DNA of 64,000 nt from an uncultured Acidobacteriia bacterium (GTDB lineage Bacteria > Acidobacteriota > Terriglobia > Bryobacterales > Bryobacteraceae): contig CAINNJ010000008.1 of the NCBI GenBank assembly GCA_903851195.1, positions 186,001-250,000 of the forward strand, in the 5' to 3' direction. The notes beneath the pieces were generated by a model that was not told where the DNA came from, searched no databases, and saw nothing but the letters and a program-made list of their open reading frames with translations. How positions within the stretch are numbered: the first letter of the stretch is position 1; every line of letters begins with the position of its first letter. Of the stretch, positions 36,635-45,954 are shown one piece after another. The position numbers were made by a program, and so were the translations under genes.

Positions 36635-38308
36635 TTAGTGCCCCACCCGCACCATCACCACCCCGTGCGGCGCCACCTTTGCCCGGAAACCCTCCGCCTG
36701 CTTCCCCAGGTCCGCATGCGACCACAAATCCCGCACCTGCGGCTTGCCCTTCACCTGCGCGTCCGCCCACTTCACCGCAACCTCCGCTTCCCGGTCCCCC
36801 CGGTTGAACAGCGCGACCGCCGTATAGCCCTTGTCCAGAGGCCGCGCCCAGACCTCCGTCTCCCCTTCTTTCGCGATCCGCCAGCCGCCCTTGCCCAACC
36901 TGTCCTGGTCCACCGCGATCACTTCCCGATTCGTCAGAATGTCGCGAATCTCCGGCGTCATACTCCGCAGATCGTTCCCCGCCATCAGCGGCGCCCCGAT
37001 CATCGCCCACAAACTCAGATGCGTCCGGTACTCCACCGCCGACATGCCGCCGTTACCCACCTCCAGCATGTCCGGATCCGGCCACCAGCCCGGCCGCGTA
37101 AACTTCGCCAGATCGCTCTGCGCAAAACCAATCTGCTCCATCGACTGCCACGTATCCCGGATATCCCCCGTCGTCCGCCACAGATTGCCGCCCACCAGAC
37201 TCCCCCACTCGCCCGCGTTGTCCCGCCCGTACTGGCAGAGACTGAACACCATCCGGTTCCCCGCCTTCCGCAGCGCCTCGCCCATGCGCTGGTACACGGC
37301 TCGCATATCCTCGTCTTTCCACACCCGCGACGCGCTGCACCAGTCGTATTTCAGGTAGTCGATACCCCAGTCGGTCCAGGTCTTTGCGTCCTGCTCCTCA
37401 TGCCCGTAGCTGCCCGTGTACCCGCCGCACGTCGTCGGCCCCGGTGACGAGTAGATCCCGATCTTCAGCCCTTTCCCGTGAACATAAGCCGCCAGCGCAT
37501 TCATATCGGGAAAGTTCGGATTCGGCAGCAGTTTGCCGTCGTCTCCGCGCTTCCACTGCCAGCCGTCGTCGATATTGATAAAGACGTACCCGGCGTCGCG
37601 CATCCCGCTCGACACCAGCGCATCCGCGATCTCCCGAACCGTTTTGTCGTCGATCTTCGTGTGGAACTTGTTCCAGCTGTTCCAGCCCATCGGCGGCGTC
37701 TTCGCTAACCCGTTCGGCGGCAGCGCCTGCAGCGCCGGCAGTTCCAGCTTCGGCAGCTTGCTGTAATCCACCGTCGCCGCGCGATAGGTGGGGGTCGGAA
37801 CCCCGCGTTTCGCAATAAACGGCCCCGCCATCATGCCGCGCCCCCGACCGCCACCCGGACCGCCAGGTCCGGCGCCCATCGGAGCACCGCCAGGTCCGGC
37901 GCCCATCGGCGCACCGCCAGGTCCGGCGCCCATCGGAGCACCGCCAGGTGCGGCGCCCGGACCACCCCTGCCGCGTCCGCCCCCGGCCGGCATCGCAGGC
38001 GTAATCTGCAGTTCGTCGCCCACAATCGTCGCCCTTGCCGTGGCCCTTGAGATCGTCCCGAAACTCTCCGTCTCCACCGTCATCTCGACCTGATCGCCCG
38101 TAATCCTGCCATCCACGATCGGCGAATCCCCGAACGGCATCCTCTGCGTGCCCGTGATCTTCCCGTTCGCGTCCACCTTCAGCTCATAAACGATTTCCAT
38201 CTCGCCCATCATCGGGTTGCTGGTCTTCGCCACCCAGGTCCCCGACAGATCTCTCGTCTGCGCTCCGGCGAGCAGGGCAAGCGCCCCGAAAACAATCAGC
38301 CTGTTCAT
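36635..38308 (-). CDS. Exported GH27 alpha-galactosidase-type glycosidase with extra N-terminal domain
   Basis: A 557-residue exported protein: signal peptide MNRLIVFGALALLAGAQT, then a beta domain (about 18-106, LSGTWVAKTSNPMMGEMEI, YELKVDANGKITGTQRMPFG). A Gly/Pro/Ala-rich linker (109-160) built from a repeated GAPMGAGPG unit precedes the GH27 catalytic barrel. Barrel motifs are PPMGWNSWNKF, FINIDDGWQWKRGDDG, YLKYDWC (nucleophile Asp322), WRTTGDIRDTW (acid/base Asp382) and WWPDPDMLEVGNGG. A small C-terminal beta domain follows. The family retains configuration and removes alpha-galactose or alpha-N-acetylgalactosamine. The start at 38308 opens the signal peptide; the frame runs on upstream through the VPEID locus without meaning. 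Confidence 0.95.
   Translation of the reverse strand: MNRLIVFGALALLAGAQTRDLSGTWVAKTSNPMMGEMEIVYELKVDANGKITGTQRMPFGDSPIVDGRITGDQVEMTVETESFGTISRATARATIVGDELQITPAMPAGGGRGRGGPGAAPGGAPMGAGPGGAPMGAGPGGAPMGAGPGGPGGGRGRGMMAGPFIAKRGVPTPTYRAATVDYSKLPKLELPALQALPPNGLAKTPPMGWNSWNKFHTKIDDKTVREIADALVSSGMRDAGYVFINIDDGWQWKRGDDGKLLPNPNFPDMNALAAYVHGKGLKIGIYSSPGPTTCGGYTGSYGHEEQDAKTWTDWGIDYLKYDWCSASRVWKDEDMRAVYQRMGEALRKAGNRMVFSLCQYGRDNAGEWGSLVGGNLWRTTGDIRDTWQSMEQIGFAQSDLAKFTRPGWWPDPDMLEVGNGGMSAVEYRTHLSLWAMIGAPLMAGNDLRSMTPEIRDILTNREVIAVDQDRLGKGGWRIAKEGETEVWARPLDKGYTAVALFNRGDREAEVAVKWADAQVKGKPQVRDLWSHADLGKQAEGFRAKVAPHGVVMVRVGH
37861..37960 (-). repeat. 27-bp tandem repeat encoding the GH27 linker
   Basis: Three full copies of a 27-bp unit (37861-37887, 37888-37914, 37915-37941) plus a partial fourth. 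Copies differ at single bases. Each encodes the nine residues GAPMGAGPG, and the repeat keeps frame, so copy number can change without breaking the enzyme. Confidence 0.9.
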
Positions 38309-38376
38309 TCTGTTCCCGTTCACACTGTCAAAGGTATACCCGCCACGCCTCCAGTTAAAATTTTCGGGAGTGAAAA

Positions 38377-38510
38377 TTGACACAGAGCTGGGCACGTCAT
38401 GGCTCGCTTTCCCCGCGCCTGTGGCTCCGGAGATCGATGCGGCGACGGACGGCAGCGCGCCCTCACTTCTCGCGGCCGCCGCCACCATCATCCGCAGTCG
38501 CCTGAGAAAG
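38377..38510 (+). pseudogene. Decayed third copy of a VPEID-CTERM peptide gene
   Basis: The stretch keeps a TTGACA -35 box (38377-38382) and, at 38421-38510, a frame reading VAPEIDAATDGSAPSLLAAA followed by a hydrophobic run and RSRLRK, clearly related to the two intact copies downstream. The distance from TTGACA to the GAG-ATC-GAT core is 53 bases here against 134 and 135 in the intact copies. An 81-base segment with the -10 box, ribosome site, start codon and most of the signal peptide is therefore gone. The stop codon after the basic tail is also lost. Apart from this element the 389 bases between the galactosidase start and the next gene hold nothing I recognise. Confidence 0.75.
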
Positions 38511-38635
38511 TTGCCCTGGACCGGTATGGAAATGAAGCCGCAAACCACTTCTCGTCCGAACTCCCCGGAACGTAGTTCCGCCTCGACCCGTTCCGCCGAC
38601 GAATCCGGAAATCAACAATCCGGTAAACGTAATTC

Positions 38636-38664
38636 TTGACACAACTCTGAGGGCATAATATTCT
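38636..38664 (+). promoter_or_regulatory. Promoter of first VPEID-CTERM peptide gene
   Basis: TTGACA (38636-38641), 17-base spacer, TATTCT (38659-38664): a near-consensus housekeeping promoter in an AT-rich patch, about 34 bases before the start codon. The same layout recurs before the second peptide gene. Confidence 0.7.
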
Positions 38665-38697
38665 TTCGGAACGGCCTTGTGCCTTCAAAGGAGAAAT

Positions 38698-38853
38698 ATG
38701 AACAAACTCAGCGTACTCGCCCTTCTTGTTATCGGTTCCTCCGTGTCGCTGCTGGCAGTTCCGGTGCCGGAGATCGATCCGGCCTCCGGTGGAAGCGCCC
38801 TCGCCCTGCTGGCTGCGGCAGCCGTCATGATCCGCGCTCGGCGCAGGAAATAA
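38698..38853 (+). CDS. VPEID-CTERM mini-protein, copy 1
   Basis: A 51-residue protein: MNKLSVLALLVIGSSVSLLA is a complete Sec signal peptide. After only VP it runs directly into VPEID (Glu25), a helix-forming hydrophobic stretch and a basic RARRRK tail. That is a full exosortase-type sorting signal of the VPEID-CTERM variant with essentially no cargo between the two signals. It has a strong AAAGGAG ribosome site and its own promoter, and lies two genes upstream of the exosortase E/protease fusion, its presumed processing enzyme. Anchored or released product would be only a few residues long. Role unknown; a pheromone, a competitive decoy or a sorted lipid-linked peptide are all speculative. 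Confidence 0.88.
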   Translation: MNKLSVLALLVIGSSVSLLAVPVPEIDPASGGSALALLAAAAVMIRARRRK

Positions 38854-38861
38854 CCGGAACC

Positions 38862-38900
38862 CCGGAATGGAAGCCAACCCTGCGGCGGGCTCCATTCCGG
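38862..38900 (+). terminator. Hairpin after VPEID-CTERM copy 1
   Basis: CCGGAATGGA (38862-38871) pairs with TCCATTCCGG (38891-38900), with an inner AGCC/GGCT extension. It lies 8 bases after the stop codon. No long T-run follows, so it may be a partial terminator or an mRNA stabiliser. Confidence 0.55.
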
Positions 38901-38920
38901 ACACCAAACAATAGTAATTA

Positions 38921-38949
38921 TTGACACCATCCTCTGGCGAGATTATCCT
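38921..38949 (+). promoter_or_regulatory. Promoter of second VPEID-CTERM peptide gene
   Basis: TTGACA (38921-38926), 17-base spacer, TATCCT (38944-38949). Spacing to the start codon and the following GGCC and AAAGGA blocks mirror copy 1, so promoter and gene were duplicated together. Confidence 0.7.
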
Positions 38950-38986
38950 TGTCTGAAATGGCCCTCTGGCCACCAAAGGAACAATG

Positions 38987-39139
38987 ATGAACAAACTCGC
39001 AGTCGTCGCTCTTCTTGCCATTGGCACCTCCGTTTCGCTCCTCGCTTCGGTACCGGAAATCGATCCGGCTTCCGGTGGCAGCGCCCTCGCCCTGCTCGCG
39101 GCAGCTGCCGTCATGATTCGCGGTCGCCGCAAAAAATAA
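38987..39139 (+). CDS. VPEID-CTERM mini-protein, copy 2
   Basis: A 50-residue protein starting MNKLAVVALLAIGTSVSLLA, directly followed by S and VPEID (Glu24), the hydrophobic stretch and a basic RGRRKK tail. The 24 residues from VPEID to MIR are identical to copy 1 although many third codon positions differ, so the sorting signal is under protein-level selection. Two ATGs are adjacent (38984 and 38987); I chose the second by analogy with copy 1. Ribosome site AAAGGA. A hairpin and 55 bases separate it from the exosortase gene. Confidence 0.88.
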   Translation: MNKLAVVALLAIGTSVSLLASVPEIDPASGGSALALLAAAAVMIRGRRKK

Positions 39140-39145
39140 CCACTG

Positions 39146-39184
39146 ACCGGAGTGGCAGCCATGCCCCGCGGCGGCTGCTCCGGT
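39146..39184 (+). terminator. Hairpin between VPEID-CTERM copy 2 and the exosortase gene
   Basis: ACCGGA (39146-39151) with TCCGGT (39179-39184) and an inner GCAGCC/GGCTGC stem. It stands in the only possible leader of the exosortase gene, so it may act as an attenuator that keeps enzyme levels below peptide levels. Inference from position. Confidence 0.5.
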
Positions 39185-39194
39185 TTCCCCTCCC

Positions 39195-40835
39195 TTGACA
39201 GCCTCTCCCCTCTCCCGTACCAATCCCGCCTTATTCATCCGCCGCGCCGTTCTGCTGGTCGTTCTTTTCTGCGCGGAACTTTCCGTGCTTTCCGTTTGGC
39301 TCGACGACGCTTCCCTTGCGGGTCGGAGCGGGGCCGCAGCTTTTGTCGCCACATGGGGTTCCTGGATCCTGAAATCGGTCGTCGGCTTCCTCGCCCTCTT
39401 CTCGGTGCTTGCATGGAGAAAAAACCGCGTCGGCTTCCTTCCCCCCTCGCTGCCGTTTCACCGCCCCGCCTTCCTCGTCCACCTCGCCGCGATGAGTGGC
39501 TTCGTGGCTCTCTCCGCCGCCCTCTACTCGCGCCAGGTCACCGCCCTCCCCGCAACCCCGGCCTTCCTGCTCTGGGCCCTGCTTGGCCTCACCGGAATCG
39601 CTGCCGCCGCTCTCGCCTTCTTCTCTCCGGATTTCTGGCGGAATCTGTTCCGCGGCACCACCCTGCTCTCCCTTTATGCGCTCGGGACCGTGCTCGCCGC
39701 CTGTCTCTCCGGCAACAGCCTCCGCTCCCTTTGGCGCCCCCTCACCAGCCTCACTTTCACCATCGTTTCCGTGCTGGTGAAGCCGCTCCTCCCGAGCTTC
39801 ATTTCGAATCCGGCCACCGCCACCCTCGGCACCGCTCGCTTCAACGTCGAAATCGCTCCGGAGTGTTCCGGCTTCGAAGGCATCGGCCTGATGCTCGCTT
39901 TTGGCGCCACCTGGCTGATGCTGTTCCGCAAAGAGTTCCGCTTTCCCCAGGCTTTGCTCCTGCTCCCCGCGGGCGCCATCGCCGTCTTTTTCTGCAACTC
40001 CCTGCGGATAGCCTCCCTGATTCTTCTCGGCAACGCCGGCGCGGAAGCCGTCGCCGTCGGCGGGTTCCACTCCCAGTCCGGCTGGATCATCTTCGTCTCG
40101 CTCGCCCTTGCCTTCCCCTTGCTCGCCCGGCGAATCGCCCAGTTCTCGTCCGCCGCGCCCGCCGCCGCCGCCCCCGCTTCGGTTTCGGTTTCGGCGTCGG
40201 TTTCGGCCTCGGCCGCCGACCCCTGGCTGTGGCCCTTCGTCGCCATTCTCGCCGCAGGCATGCTCTCCACCGCCGCTTCCAGCAACTTCGAATGGCTCTA
40301 CCCCCTCCGCTTCGCCGCCGCCCTTCTGGCCCTCCGGCATTTCCGCCGCAAATACGCGGAACTCGACTGGCGCTTCGGCTGGCCCGCGGCACTCGCCGGC
40401 ATCGCCATCTATCTGCTCTGGCTTGCCATGGACCGCCTGTTGTCCCACGGGAACGCCTCCATGCCTCCGGCCCTCGCCGCCGCAAGCCCCGCCGCGCGAA
40501 CCCTCTGGATCGCCTTCCGCGTCATAGCCGCCACTCTGACCGTCCCCATCGCCGAAGAACTGGCCTTCCGCGGCTTCCTGCTGCGCCGTCTCACGCGCGC
40601 CGATTTCGAGTCCGTCCCCTTCACGCAGCCGTCGTGGCCAGCCCTCCTTGGCTCCTCCCTCGCCTTCGGCCTGCTCCACGGCGGCTTCTGGCCCGCCGGC
40701 TTCCTCGCCGGCCTGGTCTTCGCCCTCCTGCTGCGCGCCAAAGGCCGCCTCGGCGACGCGGTGGCCGCCCACGGAGTCGCCAACGCCCTGCTCGCCGTCA
40801 ACGTCCTCGTCCTCGGTCAGTGGCAACTCTGGTAA
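39195..40835 (+). CDS. Exosortase E fused to CPBP (CAAX-type) intramembrane protease
   Basis: A 546-residue polytopic membrane protein of the exosortase E/protease type. The exosortase half (about 15-315) has the catalytic triad Cys224 in IAPECSGFEGIGLML, Arg271 in FFCNSLRIASLI and His292 in GGFHSQSGW. A low-complexity Ala/Ser/Val linker (319-342) leads to a CPBP glutamic protease half: EELAFRG (Glu454, Glu455, Arg459), FGLLHGGFW (His495) and HGVANALLAV (His526, Asn530). All catalytic positions are intact in both halves. The likely role is cleaving the VPEID-CTERM signal, with the protease half possibly trimming the leftover C-terminal peptide. The only possible start is TTG 39195 with no ribosome site, suggesting low expression or coupling. 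Confidence 0.93.
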   Translation: MTASPLSRTNPALFIRRAVLLVVLFCAELSVLSVWLDDASLAGRSGAAAFVATWGSWILKSVVGFLALFSVLAWRKNRVGFLPPSLPFHRPAFLVHLAAMSGFVALSAALYSRQVTALPATPAFLLWALLGLTGIAAAALAFFSPDFWRNLFRGTTLLSLYALGTVLAACLSGNSLRSLWRPLTSLTFTIVSVLVKPLLPSFISNPATATLGTARFNVEIAPECSGFEGIGLMLAFGATWLMLFRKEFRFPQALLLLPAGAIAVFFCNSLRIASLILLGNAGAEAVAVGGFHSQSGWIIFVSLALAFPLLARRIAQFSSAAPAAAAPASVSVSASVSASAADPWLWPFVAILAAGMLSTAASSNFEWLYPLRFAAALLALRHFRRKYAELDWRFGWPAALAGIAIYLLWLAMDRLLSHGNASMPPALAAASPAARTLWIAFRVIAATLTVPIAEELAFRGFLLRRLTRADFESVPFTQPSWPALLGSSLAFGLLHGGFWPAGFLAGLVFALLLRAKGRLGDAVAAHGVANALLAVNVLVLGQWQLW

Positions 40836-45225: not shown

Positions 45226-45954
45226 TTACTTCCGGCGCCGGCGGAACAGCCCGGCAAAGCACAACCCGCCCGCCAGCAAGCCATAGGTCGCCGGCTCCGG
45301 CGTGTTGTCCAGACCGGCGGTGCCGTTCAGCGTGAAGATATCGCCCGCGCTCACTCGTGCGCCAATGCTGATATTGATCACGCCGTTGGCCGCCGACAGC
45401 ACCGCGAGATTCAGCATATTTTCCTGACCACACGCCGTGGACGAATGCGGCGCAACGGCGCCGGAGCAACCGCCCACAATAGCCCCGAAACTCCCGACAC
45501 CCGTTGCGTCCGGATTGTGAATGGCCGTCAACCCCGCGCTCGGCGTAACCGACACCATGCCGTCGCCATTATCCGTGACCGAGCCCGAGTAAGTGCTGAA
45601 AGCCACCGTATAAGGTCCGCCAGTAAAAGGCGCCATGACCGTCGCTGTAAAATCCTGGGCAGTGTTCGACGTATTCGCGAAGGTGATTCCGTAACTCACC
45701 TGAGGATCGGTATCCGCATTGACGGTGCCCGAAAACTGGTACCCGTTCGCGCCCCCCGCGTTCCAGTTCAGACTGTACATACTGGAACTCACCGGCGTCA
45801 CCGTTACCACCGGACTGATTATGTTCCCGCCCACGGTCAGAACAATCGTGGGACACGGATTCGCGGCACAATTCGCGGCGCTGATCGTATCGGCCCGCGC
45901 GGCAGGCAGCATCAATGCGGCCGCCAGCATAGTCATGGAAAGTATTTGTTTCAT
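45226..45954 (-). CDS. PEP-CTERM exported protein
   Basis: A 242-residue exported protein with signal peptide MKQILSMTMLAAALMLPAARA. The beta-rich Thr/Ser/Gly body has one cysteine pair near the N-terminus and another near 165-180 (GGCSGAVAPHSSTACG), likely disulfides. The C-terminal sorting signal is TPEPATYGLLAGGLCFAGLFRRRRK. Such proteins are processed by a PEP-CTERM exosortase (XrtA-like), a different class from the VPEID enzyme at 39-41 kb. Good GGAGG ribosome site. Body family not recognised. Confidence 0.88.
   Translation of the reverse strand: MKQILSMTMLAAALMLPAARADTISAANCAANPCPTIVLTVGGNIISPVVTVTPVSSSMYSLNWNAGGANGYQFSGTVNADTDPQVSYGITFANTSNTAQDFTATVMAPFTGGPYTVAFSTYSGSVTDNGDGMVSVTPSAGLTAIHNPDATGVGSFGAIVGGCSGAVAPHSSTACGQENMLNLAVLSAANGVINISIGARVSAGDIFTLNGTAGLDNTPEPATYGLLAGGLCFAGLFRRRRK

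Follow-up and report, generated by a model that had tools for sequence, protein, structure and literature searches.

Cargo-less VPEID-CTERM peptides paired with an exosortase-CPBP protease fusion in the Bryobacterales

Fusions of an exosortase with a CPBP protease, and the VPEID-CTERM sorting signal, are already known as families in NCBIfam (TIGR04162 and TIGR04161), and four EpsH-CAAX fusion proteins are reported in the accessible part of Haft et al. 2006 (PMC1569441). Enzymes of this class usually anchor large surface proteins, so that tiny targets hint at a small membrane-linked product. Here we analyzed such a case in a 64,000-nucleotide stretch (hereafter the window; positions 186,001 to 250,000 of contig CAINNJ010000008.1, assembly GCA_903851195.1) from an uncultured member of the Bryobacteraceae, where two mini-genes encoding peptides of about 50 residues stand upstream of the gene for an exosortase-CPBP fusion, XrtE (Table 1).

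Both peptides share the same layout, namely a signal peptide, VP or S, VPEIDPASGGSALALLAAAAVMIR and a basic tail. The predicted cleavage, set by a simple rule of our own and not by SignalP, leaves nothing but VP or S ahead of the VPEID signal, as the first-pass annotation (made from the sequence alone) had proposed; the length of the second peptide depends on which of two adjacent ATG codons (38984 or 38987, giving 51 or 50 aa) is the start. Signal peptide (rule-based), motif, helix, basic tail and adjacency to xrtE were all found, although the scores against TIGR04161 (18.4 and 20.7 bits) fall under its cut-off of 33 bits in spite of an exact motif. Mini-gene 1 also reached 21 bits against the MYXO-CTERM model TIGR03901 (cut-off 20), which we rejected as a cross-match because the peptide has no Cys. 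At the DNA level the two genes show 80.7% identity; they differ at 4 first, 4 second, and 21 third codon positions. Their dN/dS of 0.11 argues for purifying selection on them as proteins, and chance small frames could be ruled out by this codon-position bias together with the co-occurrence with XrtE. Each is preceded by a purine-rich ribosome-binding-like site and a TTGACA-17-TATNCT box.

The fusion protein scored 195.2 bits against TIGR04162 (curated cut-off, 150) and 149.9 bits against TIGR03008 (cut-off, 81.05), and matched PF09721 and PF02517; its start codon is TTG as listed. The catalytic residues named for it in the first-pass annotation are conserved, with C224, R271, and H292 kept in all 49 aligned homologues, E454/E455 in 48, and H495/H526 in 47. 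The C-terminal residue (codon region 40833-40835 in the window) is also unusually fixed, being Trp in 47 of the 49. An AlphaFold2 model had a mean pLDDT of 89.1 and a pTM of 0.76, and no solved relative was recovered by fold (E ≤ 0.001) or by sequence profile (E ≤ 1).

We next consider the pairing of peptides and enzyme across 257 genomes of the order, taken to be the Bryobacterales, counting XrtE at E ≤ 1e-30. XrtE was detected in 50 of them and a peptide in 56 at E ≤ 0.01 or 54 at E ≤ 1e-3; five first-look candidates per genome were scored in most XrtE searches and 26 in the peptide search, and misses are possible. At the stricter threshold, 49 genomes held both, one XrtE alone, five a peptide alone, and 202 neither, so that peptides occurred in 49/50 genomes with XrtE versus 5/207 of the others (Fisher p = 1e-45, kinship ignored); within the genus of the window the figures were 9/9 versus 1/10. 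The match in the single genome with XrtE alone (G239) is partial, covering profile positions 5-313 of 516. At the locus level, 44 of 53 XrtE loci had a peptide within 1.5 kb, including two (L065 and L077) with broken or start-less copies alone, and the nearest peptide lay upstream on the same strand in 35, downstream on the same strand in 8, and downstream on the opposite strand in 1. Eight of the nine XrtE loci with no near peptide belong to genomes that hold peptides elsewhere. Tandem copies occur, five of them in genome G015, and arrays are also found away from XrtE. Part of this link arises by construction, the peptide profile (A1) having been built from peptides near XrtE. Co-occurrence and gene positions support the view that peptides and XrtE belong together, and small VPEID frames near exosortase-CPBP fusions recur in the order, extending a pairing noticed in a single locus.

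Among 110 distinct peptides of the order, with starts and cleavage sites chosen by rule, the median length was 52 aa and the median distance from predicted cleavage to Glu was 7 residues. At most eight residues precede Pro-Glu in 102 of the 109 peptides with a predicted site and at least 20 in four, i.e., few carry linkers. Judged by these predictions, the cargo-less extreme is the rule for XrtE peptides in the order; the small targets, for which a "different job" was suggested at first, are not peculiar to this locus. Information is concentrated in PEID, the helix, and the arginines, with conservation >90% at Ala+10, Gly+16, Arg+22, and Arg+24, and the helix with its small-residue positions is far more conserved than the tip, which is variable, 8% charged, and rich in V, A, P, G, T, and S. 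All 47 peptides of A1 have Pro in front of Glu, and had been selected by a motif that asks for Glu and not for Pro (excluded from A1 were L076, a start-less copy from L081, a peptide from L072 with a long P-rich linker, two chance frames of L050, and the broken copies of L065 and L077). Pooled dN/dS was 0.20 over 17 close pairs, which overlap and include six from L211. A ribosome-binding-like match of at least 4 bases precedes 84 of the 110 peptides, with starts picked partly by this criterion, and hairpins 3' of the stops averaged -19.4 kcal/mol against -15.2 in shuffles (n = 108). TTGACA was found upstream of 11 of the 110 (1.8 expected from single-base shuffles); the case for a general rule of own promoters is therefore weak, and we claim such sites for the window alone.

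The same genome offers a contrast with cargo-bearing targets. A second XrtE (C16:12063-13394; 198.7 bits to TIGR04162) has a 53-residue peptide just upstream. A search with TIGR04161 at E ≤ 10 for larger VPEID proteins gave the three intact peptides alone, all under the cut-off (best score, 26.4 bits), and our peptide profile (E ≤ 1; 150 of 159 candidates scored) added the relic described below, one chance-level match (E = 0.057), and nothing else. Large VPEID targets elsewhere in this genome, an explanation that had been raised for the locus, were thus not found by either model. Two further exosortases (PF09721; 246 and 133.5 bits) accompany 46 PEP-CTERM matches over cut-off, 45 of which lie in frames of 175-836 aa and one in a frame of 48; these lengths run from stop to stop, some matches are weak (E up to 0.6), 150 of 165 candidates were scored, and two of 14 control genomes also gave matches to this model over cut-off. 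Against these 46, the genome's two XrtE have three intact VPEID peptides, all tiny. Judging from these family matches, a single cell seems to use different exosortases for the longer PEP-CTERM proteins and for the cargo-less VPEID peptides. One cargo-bearing PEP-CTERM protein (242 aa, TIGR02595 over cut-off) is encoded in the window itself at 45226-45954 on the minus strand. The CPBP half of the XrtE model also has a match on its own at G000:C25:596456-597115, ca. 0.7 kb from a PEP-CTERM match (C25:597849).

Clustering of the neighbors at 93 loci (the 25 commonest clusters, few of them annotated) showed that, after XrtE, the commonest was a PF04116 protein, fatty-acid-hydroxylase-like, at 20 loci, and 20 of the 21 genes in this cluster are no farther than 300 bases from a peptide. 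An outer-membrane-barrel family came next (13 loci) and all others were at ≤9; these next clusters were rarely near peptides (4/14 and 4/9 genes within 1 kb). When sought by profile, a hydroxylase is no more than 1 kb away at 20 of the 80 mini-gene loci (15/36 orphan and 5/44 XrtE loci), is convergent in 15, and is of another kind in L099; the background is 0-3 PF04116 matches per genome in the 24 genomes sampled. All of the 18 best places of a hydroxylase profile (>350 bits, 257 genomes) adjoin VPEID peptides, 16 of them by construction since the profile (A4) was built from hydroxylases near peptides.

Weaker relatives of the hydroxylase allowed a more independent check: of 49 hydroxylase loci chosen for having no nearby VPEID peptide, six (L219, L221, L233, L234, L235, and L242), all in genomes with no XrtE detected, contain cargo-less PEP-CTERM peptides of 50-56 residues. 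In four of the six, the peptide precedes the hydroxylase match by 29-40 bases, both being on the same strand. Such peptides were absent from 682 kb of shuffled DNA and from 779 kb of XrtE and mini-gene loci, and one pair of them gave a dN/dS of 0.12. In a tree of 68 hydroxylases, a clade of 28 (branch support, 96/99) comprised 19 by VPEID peptides, 7 by PEP peptides, and 2 at XrtE loci, so that in the stretches around each gene 26 of the 28 stood beside cargo-less peptides versus 0 of the 40 outside. The rows were 47 of the 49 hydroxylase loci (L261 and L269 were too short) and 21 from mini-gene or XrtE loci, with L099 (74 bits) excluded; they are a chosen part of a shortened list of profile places, some stretches end at a contig edge (e.g., L222) where a peptide may be missed, L223 was labeled PEP by hand (degenerate peptide, automatic detector negative), and a single genus accounts for five of the seven PEP rows. 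The hydroxylase clade follows the peptides even when the sorting motif changes from VPEID to PEP. A PF04116-type gene of the window's genome (G000:C10:119630-120370) carries one in-frame TAG and is possibly broken. Cargo-less peptides of the PEP type, too, come in arrays, of six in L273 (5206-6439, minus strand) and of four in L274 (4846-5741, plus strand), and a PMT_2-like membrane protein follows PEP-type peptides in L274 and L221, while the corresponding gene of L273 has no Pfam match and aligns with them. Relatives stand beside the hydroxylase of L221 and follow the peptides of L278 and of L111, the latter a VPEID array; this pairing, 5/5, was counted within loci gathered around peptides, XrtE, or hydroxylases.

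Beyond the order, a scan with a single XrtE protein gave no matches, and an alignment query then gave 279 loci, of which the best 80 were analyzed; they include Acidobacteria isolates, Planctomycetota, and proteobacteria, with many repeats of the order's contigs. A peptide-profile match (E < 0.05) was present in the surrounding stretch at 72 of these 80, that of L140 being weak and incomplete. Among the strains that carry both XrtE and small frames of the VPEID type are Silvibacterium bohemicum S15, Terracidiphilus gabretensis S55, Acidicapsa dinghuensis 4GSKX, and Singulisphaera acidiphila DSM 18658. This second set of 59 peptides, which includes some duplicates from the order, had a median of 63 aa and a tip of 6-35 residues (10 to 90% range), i.e., longer linkers, and one locus (L213) had a PEID frame of 116 residues. 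XrtE matches fell on 11 plasmid records, all annotated xrtE and all from Rhodobacterales genera. In four of the five examined, a PEI-type protein of 64, 71, 75, or 86 aa (three annotated as hypothetical, one with no annotation) lies just upstream of xrtE, and the fifth has an annotated VPEID-CTERM protein of 88 aa three genes downstream. In L206 (3500-5458), a VPEV-type mini peptide and XrtE share one open frame with no stop between, a candidate joint protein. Judged by these gene neighborhoods, small targets thus appear frequent for XrtE in general.

Table 1. Features of the XrtE locus, in window coordinates.
Feature	Position	Strand	Basis
Degenerate third copy: TTGACA box, then an open frame that keeps PEID, helix, and basic tail but has lost the signal peptide	38377..38510	+	Peptide profile, sequence
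Promoter-like site of mini-gene 1, TTGACA-17-TATTCT	38636..38664	+	Consensus match only
GGAG ribosome-binding-like site of mini-gene 1	38690..38693	+	Sequence
Mini-gene 1, 51 aa: putative signal peptide, VP, VPEID sorting signal, basic tail	38698..38853	+	Sequence, profile scores, codon analysis
Promoter-like site of mini-gene 2, TTGACA-17-TATCCT	38921..38949	+	Consensus match only
Mini-gene 2, 50 or 51 aa: putative signal peptide, S, VPEID sorting signal, basic tail	38984..39139	+	Sequence, profile scores, codon analysis
XrtE, 546 aa: N-terminal exosortase half and C-terminal CPBP glutamic protease half	39195..40835	+	TIGR04162, TIGR03008, PF09721, PF02517
Codon of exosortase Cys224	39864..39866	+	C224 in 49/49 homologues
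Codons of CPBP Glu454-Glu455	40554..40559	+	48/49 homologues

The third copy in the window scored 35.8 bits to the peptide profile at 38388-38510 (model positions 12-52), behind a TTGACA box at 38377-38382 that stands in front of the degenerate copy. A rule-based start search found no start with a signal peptide and, as far as its sequence tells, it is not a third intact peptide; an interpretation as degenerate copies holds in the window for 38388-38510 alone. GGAPMGAGP segments are repeated at 37831-38025, within a 637-aa frame of the reverse strand (36635-38548).

The interpretation that we favor, with a probability of about 45%, is that XrtE is an exosortase dedicated to peptides instead of large surface proteins, and that each peptide becomes a stub of 4-9 residues in a ribosomally made short peptidolipid. 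Upon export the signal peptide would be removed, leaving in the inner membrane a peptide of ca. 30 residues that consists of an outer tip of 4-9 residues with Pro-Glu at its end, a helix, and, on the inner side, a basic terminus. Cleavage at PEID by the Cys224 site would then hand the tip over to an acceptor, for which an amine-bearing membrane lipid is the likeliest candidate by analogy with the mechanism proposed for archaeosortase (PMC7157517, accessible part). The fused CPBP half may cut or clear the remaining helix, a role suggested by the CPBP enzyme myxosortase, whose co-expression leads to cleavage of MYXO-CTERM (PMC11980579, accessible part). Tandem mini-genes could yield several product variants and, in some relatives, the lipid part might be altered further by the dedicated fatty-acid-hydroxylase-like enzyme or, more rarely, by the PMT-like glycosyltransferase. 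The first-pass annotation had envisaged a small secreted or lipid-linked product, and the lipid-linked half of that idea gains indirectly from the hydroxylase clade. A wider claim, that sorting peptides together with a PEID- or PEP-type exosortase and the hydroxylase clade (or the PMT-like glycosyltransferase) form a module for peptidolipids and not for protein display, we regard as somewhat doubtful.

Several observations weigh against peptidolipid formation. An uncleaved membrane micropeptide would leave much the same conservation, and we infer both the cleavage and the conjugate. XrtE was not detected in five genomes with peptides, one of which (G175) has XrtE fragments beside the peptide, and dN/dS was near 1 in 2 of the 17 pairs. 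Other taxa have larger cargo or linkers, as in L212 (Rhodocyclaceae), where three PEID-ended frames of 254-391 residues lie beside XrtE. As for the hydroxylase, it is missing within 1 kb at 39 of the 44 XrtE loci with peptides, matches at 2 of 44 XrtE loci from other taxa (L211 and L207, downstream of VPEID peptides), and cannot stand for a general step because the window's genome lacks a member of the clade, its two PF04116 proteins lying outside the clade and away from the mini-genes.

Rather unlikely, in our view, is that the peptides stay uncleaved as small single-pass membrane proteins, acting as subunits or regulators of XrtE or as partners of the hydroxylase or glycosyltransferase. The conservation of the helix and small-residue positions far above that of the tip fits this proposal, as do peptides that adjoin hydroxylase or glycosyltransferase genes, sometimes far from XrtE, and the joined frame of L206, which can equally be listed for a peptidolipid. 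On the other hand, the Pro before Glu is invariant although the motif did not require it, and in genomes with no XrtE detected the signal switches to PEP while the hydroxylase partner stays; together, the invariant Pro and this switch suggest that recognition by the local exosortase matters.

A membrane cysteine protease, AgrB, and a CPBP protease, MroQ, act on AgrD, a peptide of ca. 50 aa. The similar list of parts raises the idea that the mini-genes encode precursors of a secreted signal, with XrtE and its CPBP half releasing a short tip or the helix, and tips do differ between tandem copies. The sole sign of signaling among the neighbors, few of which are annotated, was a family of hybrid PAS sensor kinases at 5 of the 93 loci (L045 6064-8556, plus strand, with relatives at L072, L098, L099, and L103). 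However, the kinase lies within 1 kb of a peptide at two loci only, the tips are poorly conserved, and the genes hugging the peptides are those of lipid or sugar enzymes. The peptide-pheromone idea of the first-pass annotation therefore gained little, and we consider it quite improbable.

We disfavor still more, as very improbable, a function as decoys or primers tuning XrtE for larger VPEID proteins elsewhere; the long PEID frames beside XrtE in the Rhodocyclaceae genome would suit it, and the searches of the window's genome described above found no such protein. That the mini-genes no longer function and are what is left of larger VPEID genes is scarcely credible given dN/dS of 0.11 (window pair) and 0.20 (pooled), ribosome-binding-like matches in 84/110 (starts chosen partly thereby), and the 49/50 co-occurrence with XrtE, one true relic in the window and a broken copy in genome G229 notwithstanding. 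Both untranslated mini-genes and large VPEID targets elsewhere, raised at the outset as possible refutations, are spoken against by the protein-like evolution and by the searches for larger VPEID proteins, translation itself being something we infer.

To our knowledge, the acceptor to which bacterial exosortases attach their targets is unsettled, and a signal peptide joined to a sorting signal alone is a near-minimal natural test object for this attachment chemistry. Its product should be within the size range of lipid mass spectrometry, and the partner genes hint at chemistry on lipids and sugars. Should the peptides prove to become peptidolipids, this would be a new use of sorting enzymes, in making small-molecule-like envelope lipids and not in protein display; if they do not, a widespread family of conserved membrane micropeptides has been revealed instead. 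In the open literature, a scope outside which most subscription papers fall, we found no account of the cargo-less rule, of the arrays, or of a pairing with the hydroxylase; neither an exosortase together with a fatty acid hydroxylase nor the term VPEID-CTERM had a match there. Exosortase E matched once each in PMC3048395 and PMC5244752, the other papers listed being off topic by their titles, and small VPEID targets may be described in NCBI family notes or in the 2012 exosortase/archaeosortase paper.

Compared with described sorting systems, and as far as the accessible parts of the cited papers go, GlyGly-CTERM/rhombosortase (PMC3237569) resembles the XrtE locus in that the sorting enzyme gene adjoins its single target, whereas rhombosortase is a serine protease unrelated to XrtE. 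The myxosortases MrtX and MrtJ (the latter of the JDVT-CTERM system and beside a single target; PMC11980579) likewise bring a CPBP protease to a C-terminal sorting signal, but MYXO-CTERM has an invariant Cys, absent from the mini peptides, and an exosortase half is not described in the accessible part of that paper. Archaeosortase A with PssA/PssD (PMC7157517) provides a model for the proposed reaction, in which a cysteine enzyme with partners for lipid synthesis cleaves its target and transfers it to an ethanolamine lipid; it is archaeal, has a large S-layer protein among its substrates, and is comparable to the exosortase half of XrtE alone. The PEP-CTERM/EpsH system (PMC1569441) shares a homologous enzyme half and a tripartite C-terminal signal, and has many targets per genome, as is also seen in the genome of the window, whereas the XrtE targets are tiny and dedicated; many cargo-bearing targets, the mark of ordinary PEP-CTERM systems, are not what the XrtE peptides present, with three intact ones for two XrtE. 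The closest relative is the exosortase E/protease, VPEID-CTERM system (TIGR04162 with TIGR04161), with which the locus shares an enzyme over the curated cut-off and the VPEID motif. It differs in that the peptides of the window's genome score under the TIGR04161 cut-off and in that those of the order are essentially without cargo, stand in arrays and, in some cases, are paired with the hydroxylase clade.

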